Below, piece after piece: positions 38,747 through 38,929 of a stretch of DNA of 64,000 nucleotides (position 1 is the stretch's first letter; the number at the start of each line of letters is the position of its first letter). The DNA comes from Candidatus Proelusimicrobium volucris. GTDB lineage: Bacteria > Elusimicrobiota > Elusimicrobia > Elusimicrobiales > Elusimicrobiaceae. Both the position numbers and the translations under genes were made by a program. The notes beneath the pieces were generated by a model that saw nothing but the letters and a program-made list of their open reading frames with translations, did no database searches and was not told the DNA's origin. The stretch spans positions 496,001-560,000 of the forward strand of contig CALUXD010000001.1 in assembly GCA_944324665.1 (NCBI GenBank). Direction: 5' to 3'.

Positions 38747-38767
38747 AAAAAAACCGCCTTTCGGCGG
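38747..38767 (-). terminator. Terminator of the initiator tRNA
   Basis: CCGCC-TTTC-GGCGG with TTTTTTT on the minus strand. Confidence 0.88.
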
Positions 38768-38783
38768 GACCGTTATAAAAACA

Positions 38784-38857
38784 TTGCGGGGGCAGGATTT
38801 GAACCTGCGATCTCAAGGTTATGGGCCTTGCGAGATACCGGGCTTCTCTACCCCGCA
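38784..38857 (-). tRNA. Initiator tRNA-fMet (CAT), atypical anticodon arm
   Basis: 74 nt and close to E. coli tRNA-fMet overall: acceptor TGCGGGG/CCCCGCA, A11-T24 pair in the D-stem (an initiator hallmark), T-arm GCAGG-TTCAAAT-CCTGC. The anticodon stem is CAAGG/CCTTG, so only two of the three initiator G-C pairs are present, and the loop is CCCATAA with C at position 33 instead of U. T1-A72 is paired, unlike the usual unpaired 1-72. CCA is not encoded. Confidence 0.85.
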
Positions 38858-38929
38858 ATATTATTATACATAATCAGAAGGGACTTTGCAAATAGTGAGG
38901 AGTTTATACTCCGTTTCGGCGTGGAAGGC

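Follow-up and report, generated by a model that had tools for sequence, protein, structure and literature searches.

To our knowledge, U33 is regarded as an almost universal feature of tRNA, from which eukaryotic initiators are known to depart. The 64,000-nt stretch of bacterial DNA analysed here (the window) carries, on its minus strand, an apparent initiator tRNA gene with C at position 33. Is this the working initiator of its genome, and is C33 a peculiarity of one gene or a recurrent state of bacterial initiators?

An intact initiator tRNA gene with C33

The gene is intact and its coordinates are exact (Table 1). ARAGORN assigns tRNA-Met(CAT) to 38857..38784, Rfam RF00005 matches at 62.1 bits (E 4.7e-11, cut-off 29) and the complete cloverleaf is the minimum-energy fold of the 74-nt RNA (z -3.07 against shuffles), with a centroid structure that differs. 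Read directly, the anticodon arm is CAAGG (27–31), CCCATAA (32–38) and CCTTG (39–43); A11–T24, T1–A72 and A73 are present, and the T loop is TTCAAAT. Two G–C pairs are left in the anticodon stem, G30–C40 and G31–C39, with A29–T41 as the third pair. The first-pass annotation had called this gene an initiator with C33 in the loop CCCATAA and two of the three initiator G–C pairs, and on each of these points its reading was exact. A YacP-like NYN-domain gene and a tRNA-Leu lie to one side of the gene, and an HxlR regulator gene lies to the opposite side.

Table 1. Features of the initiator tRNA locus, in window positions
Feature	Position	Strand	Remarks
Initiator tRNA gene	38784..38857	-	nt 1 = 38857, nt 73 = 38784; CCA absent from gene
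Anticodon loop CCCATAA	38819..38825	-	C33 = 38824; anticodon CAT = 38823-38821
A29	38828	-	partner T41 = 38816
T1	38857	-	A72 = 38785; predicted transcript nucleotide -1 or +1
-10 box TATAAT	38863..38868	-	ends 5 nt before tRNA nt 1
-35 region TTTGCA/TTGCAA	38886..38892	-	spacer 18 or 17
Terminator-like hairpin CCGCCGAAAGGCGG, then T7	38747..38767	-	downstream of tRNA

With the E. coli tRNA-fMet type the gene has in common A11–T24, G30–C40, G31–C39, a C-N-CATAA loop, the anticodon CAT and A72–A73; it differs in having C33 rather than U33, A29–T41 rather than G29–C41 and, in the DNA, T1–A72 rather than a 1·72 mismatch. Of the features that mark initiators, it has CAT with A37 and A38 and an R11–Y24 pair (as A11–T24), with elongator CAT tRNAs standing separate, but in place of U33 it has C33, as do many other bacterial initiators. 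The full loop CCCATAA is presumably the same as that of the human initiator. Excerpts of PMC9023262 describe C33 in place of U33 in eukaryotic initiators, which bears out what the first-pass annotation had stated, together with an A54–A58 opposition in the T loop. The present tRNA shares C33 with the animal cytoplasmic initiator as described there, but its T loop lacks the A54–A58 form, its stem has A29–T41 and it is encoded in a bacterial genome; the likeness is convergence, not kinship.

The sole initiator found in a nearly complete genome

In the host genome (1.496 Mb in 4 contigs, 99.7% complete), 46 tRNAs were matched, and all 46 were inspected. T33 is encoded in 45 of them, and C33 occurs solely in the initiator. 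The anticodon CAT is found in three tRNAs, the initiator and two with an elongator-type D stem (GCTC..GAGC), one of them (L006) presumably similar to tRNA-Ile2 and the other (L028) to elongator Met. The first-pass annotation had named two results as contradicting its reading, a second, canonical initiator and U33 in this gene; both were sought, the former among all 46 tRNAs, and neither was found.

The same 74 nt recur in 7 further genomes of the genus, making 8 with the window's own. All 30 loci retrieved from the order have both C33 and A29–T41, and the C33 pattern matched in 113 of 125 order genomes, the remaining 12 matching neither the C33 nor the non-C33 pattern; in G010, one of these 113, a separate contig carries a T33 copy in addition. 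The comparison with relatives that the first-pass annotation had proposed therefore finds C33 conserved and removes the doubt about an error. A misread base is ruled out by its presence in 113 genomes, and a pseudogene by the intact cloverleaf, promoter and terminator and by the failure to find another initiator; we give these two explanations, taken together, practically no weight. CCA is encoded in 10 of 60 order loci (L047–L106) and absent in 50, including all of the window's genus.

Distribution of C33 within the phylum

Across a phylum sample of 294 genomes, the C33 pattern matched in 125 and a pattern with any other base at 33 in 113. Every non-C33 match read T33, and neither A33 nor G33 was observed in any initiator of the sample. 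C33 occurs in families f1 and f2, the two families of the window's order, and in f16, f18 and f22 of the wider phylum; U33 is the state of the other families of the window's class. On a phylum tree of RpoB, built from 27 of 30 chosen genomes (G036, without a match, G044 and G046 were left out), the C33/U33 label needs at least three changes, and the starred branches force three.

C33 initiators in distant bacteria

A wide scan of 84,980 species genomes used a C33 pattern in which position 28 is not A, which excludes most of the window's order. It returned at least 117 C33 stretches, 80 of them named (L112–L191). Among the matches listed are Weissella, Leuconostoc, Fructobacillus, Convivina and Oenococcus, as well as Erysipelotrichaceae, Saccharibacteria and other Patescibacteria, Phycisphaerae, Lentisphaerota, Omnitrophota and Verrucomicrobiota. 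The first-pass annotation's statement that C33 is not expected in bacteria is therefore wrong, given C33 initiators in so many other groups. A non-C33 initiator was sought in 40 of the 80 listed outside genomes and none was found in 37; a T33 copy accompanies C33 in two, Fructilactobacillus lindneri and a Nocardioides metagenome-assembled genome, and one match (G321) is not tRNA-like. In F. lindneri (L140/G316) the C33 and T33 initiators are separated by about 600 bases and may represent an intermediate state.

In a sample of 301 genomes of the Leuconostoc family, the initiator pattern with any base at 33 matched in 245, and among the matches listed there are several C33 groups amid a T33 majority. 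In the phylum of L112, C33 was matched among 199 genomes in L112's own genome only.

Restriction to the initiator could be followed on the contigs themselves. Among the tRNAs that ARAGORN detected on the 80 outside loci, a classifier assigned 60 distinct ones to the initiators, 56 with C33 and 4 with T33; a stricter pattern leaves one T33 initiator, in L140. Of the 223 other distinct tRNAs that it found there, ARAGORN gave 222 with T33. The lone exception, an elongator-type CAT tRNA with C33 on an Erysipelotrichaceae contig (L178) that is presumably tRNA-Ile2-like, means that the confinement of C33 to initiators is not strict. Judged from these genome sequences, C33 is an uncommon state of bacterial initiators that has recurred and is hardly seen in other tRNAs. 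In full-text searches of the open-licence literature, no paper among the matches listed dealt with C33 in bacterial initiators, and a term search of the main text of a 2026 survey of 50,849 bacterial tRNA-fMet (PMC13092985) returned neither U33, C33 nor 'position 33'.

The outside C33 initiators (Weissella, Leuconostoc, Saccharibacteria, Phycisphaerae and others) share with the window's gene CCCATAA, A11–T24, G30–C40 (in 83 of 83) and G31–C39, of which G31 and C39 were imposed by the search pattern, and they are mostly the sole initiator. They differ from it in that pair 29–41 is most often G–C (51 of 83, against 22 A–T and 10 T–A), T1–A72 occurs in none of 79 loci and no abutting promoter is common to them.

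A29–T41 is a separate, nearly phylum-wide feature

The first-pass annotation had noted A29–T41 as part of a non-standard anticodon stem; the pair is no peculiarity of this tRNA. Among the matches listed for the phylum, A29 is present in all with C33 and in all but five with T33. On this distribution, A29–T41 is a phylum feature, independent of C33. A general coupling of C33 to A29 was rejected, U33 relatives also having A29 and most outside C33 initiators G29. In several Saccharibacteria initiators (L121, L126, L134, L141 and others), C33 occurs together with T29–A41 and C1·C72.

According to excerpts of PMC4611024, three G–C pairs (29–41, 30–40 and 31–39) are common to all initiators. The window's gene has two of them, with A29–T41 third; since A29–T41 is almost phylum-wide together with U33 and occurs in more than a quarter of the outside set (22 of 83), this does not exclude it from the initiator family, and the three-pair feature is not universal. 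The statement, as it stands in those excerpts, needs qualifying.

An abutting promoter and the fate of nucleotide 1

A sigma-70-type promoter lies directly upstream of the gene (Table 1). When the 60 order loci (L047–L106, all distinct) are aligned on nt 1, TTG from -34, TG at -14/-13 and TATAAT at -11 to -6 are conserved and the rest is variable; the -10 box ends 4 or 5 nt before nt 1 in all 60. Of the genome's 45 remaining tRNAs, 36 have their best -10 match at least 8 nt away, two have a low-scoring one at a distance of 2 or 0 nt, and seven have none. The abutting promoter is also seen in U33 families of the class, in f23/f24 and in f16/f18, and not in f15, f20, f21, f26 or f22; its presence in U33 families and its absence from f22, which has C33, make it independent of C33.

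Promoter position and pair 1–72 go together. The loci compared (L047–L106, L381–L432) include relatives that are not independent, and the switch falls on few branches. Across the 90 abutting loci among them, of which L411 rests on a poor -10 match, the pair is T–A in 71, T–G in 1 and C–A in 18. The 22 non-abutting loci have C–A in 19, A–A in 1, T–T in 2 and T–A in none. That T1–A72 occurs only with an abutting promoter fits a transcription start at nt 1 or 2, and the initiator RNA is probably leaderless.

Bacterial promoters usually have the -10 box at -12 to -7, a register that would place +1 at G2, and the initiator RNA may thus be without nt 1. The first-pass annotation's paired T1–A72 is accurate for the DNA, but the promoter position makes nt 1 doubtful in the RNA, where, if nt 1 is absent, the pair may not exist. 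Among the 60 order loci, nucleotide 1 is T in 58 and C in 2 and varies less than the positions upstream of it; this counts against a G2 start because nt 1 looks like part of the RNA, and could alternatively reflect a favoured pyrimidine immediately ahead of the start. A bacterial initiator is marked by the lack of a Watson–Crick pair at 1–72. We raise tentatively, at clearly less than an even chance, that the order's initiator is leaderless with +1 at G2 and its RNA without nt 1, so that the unpaired end would come by omission and not by a 1·72 mismatch, with no need for RNase P. If that is true, then with C33 and A29–U41 three textbook hallmarks would be changed, one of them replaced by promoter position.

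Search for compensating changes

Four molecules were screened for positions that separate C33 from U33 genomes. The 16S check covered 30 genomes, 10 of them without 16S and some sequences partial; in the readable 16S of C33 genomes the 790 loop, G966/C967, G1338/A1339 and the 1400 region are the same as in U33 genomes, in an assumed residue numbering. Residues for this check were chosen from excerpts of PMC11497404. No separating column was found in the 16S alignment (17 sequences, 6 of them C33), in uS9 (recovered from 13 of 15 C33 and 15 of 15 U33 genomes) or in IF3 (14 of 15 and 15 of 15). The simplest view, from these alignments, would be that C33 needed no ribosomal change.

MetRS (recovered from 14 of 15 C33 and 15 of 15 U33 genomes) has one column that separates, in its anticodon domain, with F, Y or W in 0 of 14 C33 and 10 of 15 U33 genomes. 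It is residue 456 in the stop-to-stop frame of the window genome and, counted along the alignment, falls on Tyr438 of Aquifex MetRS 2csx and on Ala in 7wpi. Since 34 of 1861 block-wise label sets yield a comparable column and four molecules were screened, the column may be taken as a weak lead for C33 compensation. A review lists U33, bracketed in its table, among the E. coli initiator determinants for MetRS (PMC9976931); taken with the separating column, this means that tolerance of C33 may not be cost-free.

Why C33 may be tolerated

The reading that we favour, and consider probable, is that the gene encodes a functional initiator, the only one found in its genome, in which U33 was replaced by C33 and C33 was kept, tolerated since an initiator skips the A site. 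U33 would be required mainly for the anticodon turn in A-site decoding and for translocation. The initiator would go straight into the P site, where 16S G1338/A1339 would grip its stem and the P-site pocket its loop; contact of G1338/A1339 with the initiator anticodon stem is described in excerpts of PMC11497404. Because this route bypasses the A site, the demand for U33 would be relaxed, and a C33 loop, still with a pyrimidine at 33, could be tolerated in the P site and reach fixation. Charging, formylation and selection for the P site would depend, as elsewhere in bacteria, on CAU, A11–T24, the acceptor end, G30–C40 and G31–C39.

C33 might instead be adaptive, tuning, together with A29–T41, start-codon choice or the loop's switch between free and P-site-bound forms, and its recurrent fixation in separate lineages speaks for this. 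So do excerpts of PMC4611024, in which the free bacterial initiator loop, as in E. coli, differs from elongator loops in an unusual position of U33 and an A37·G29–C41 triple, features that A29 and C33 would both touch. That 32 of the 83 outside C33 initiators are without G29–C41 points the same way, in a count that has no U33 baseline, but the majority keep the pair, and in the phylum A29 is equally common with U33. We regard an adaptive role as rather unlikely, at roughly a chance in eight.

Escape from an anticodon-loop nuclease, such as a VapC that cuts initiators, is less probable still. An enteric VapC cleaves the tRNA-fMet anticodon stem-loop between A38 and C39 (excerpts of PMC4105405), and phage tRNAs are reported to evade such nucleases through loop changes (PMC10264068, in part), but C33 is stable across the whole order, unlike the outcome expected of an arms race, and we consider this improbable. 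We consider editing of C33 to U33 in the RNA very improbable: C33 arose separately in distant lineages, so that editing would have to exist in each one independently, and in the remaining tRNAs of the genome T33 is already present in the gene.

Implications for initiator tRNAs

C33 has been fixed repeatedly in bacterial initiators and is almost absent from the other tRNAs of those contigs, a pattern that suggests a tie between the U33 rule and the elongation cycle. Lineages with C33 are natural replicates for testing the role of U33, and some are cultured genera (Weissella, Leuconostoc and Oenococcus). The abutting promoter, for its part, offers a simple prediction of how the 1–72 requirement may be met. 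We infer the initiator function of the gene; the recurrence of C33 and the prediction of a leaderless initiator are both surprising and testable.
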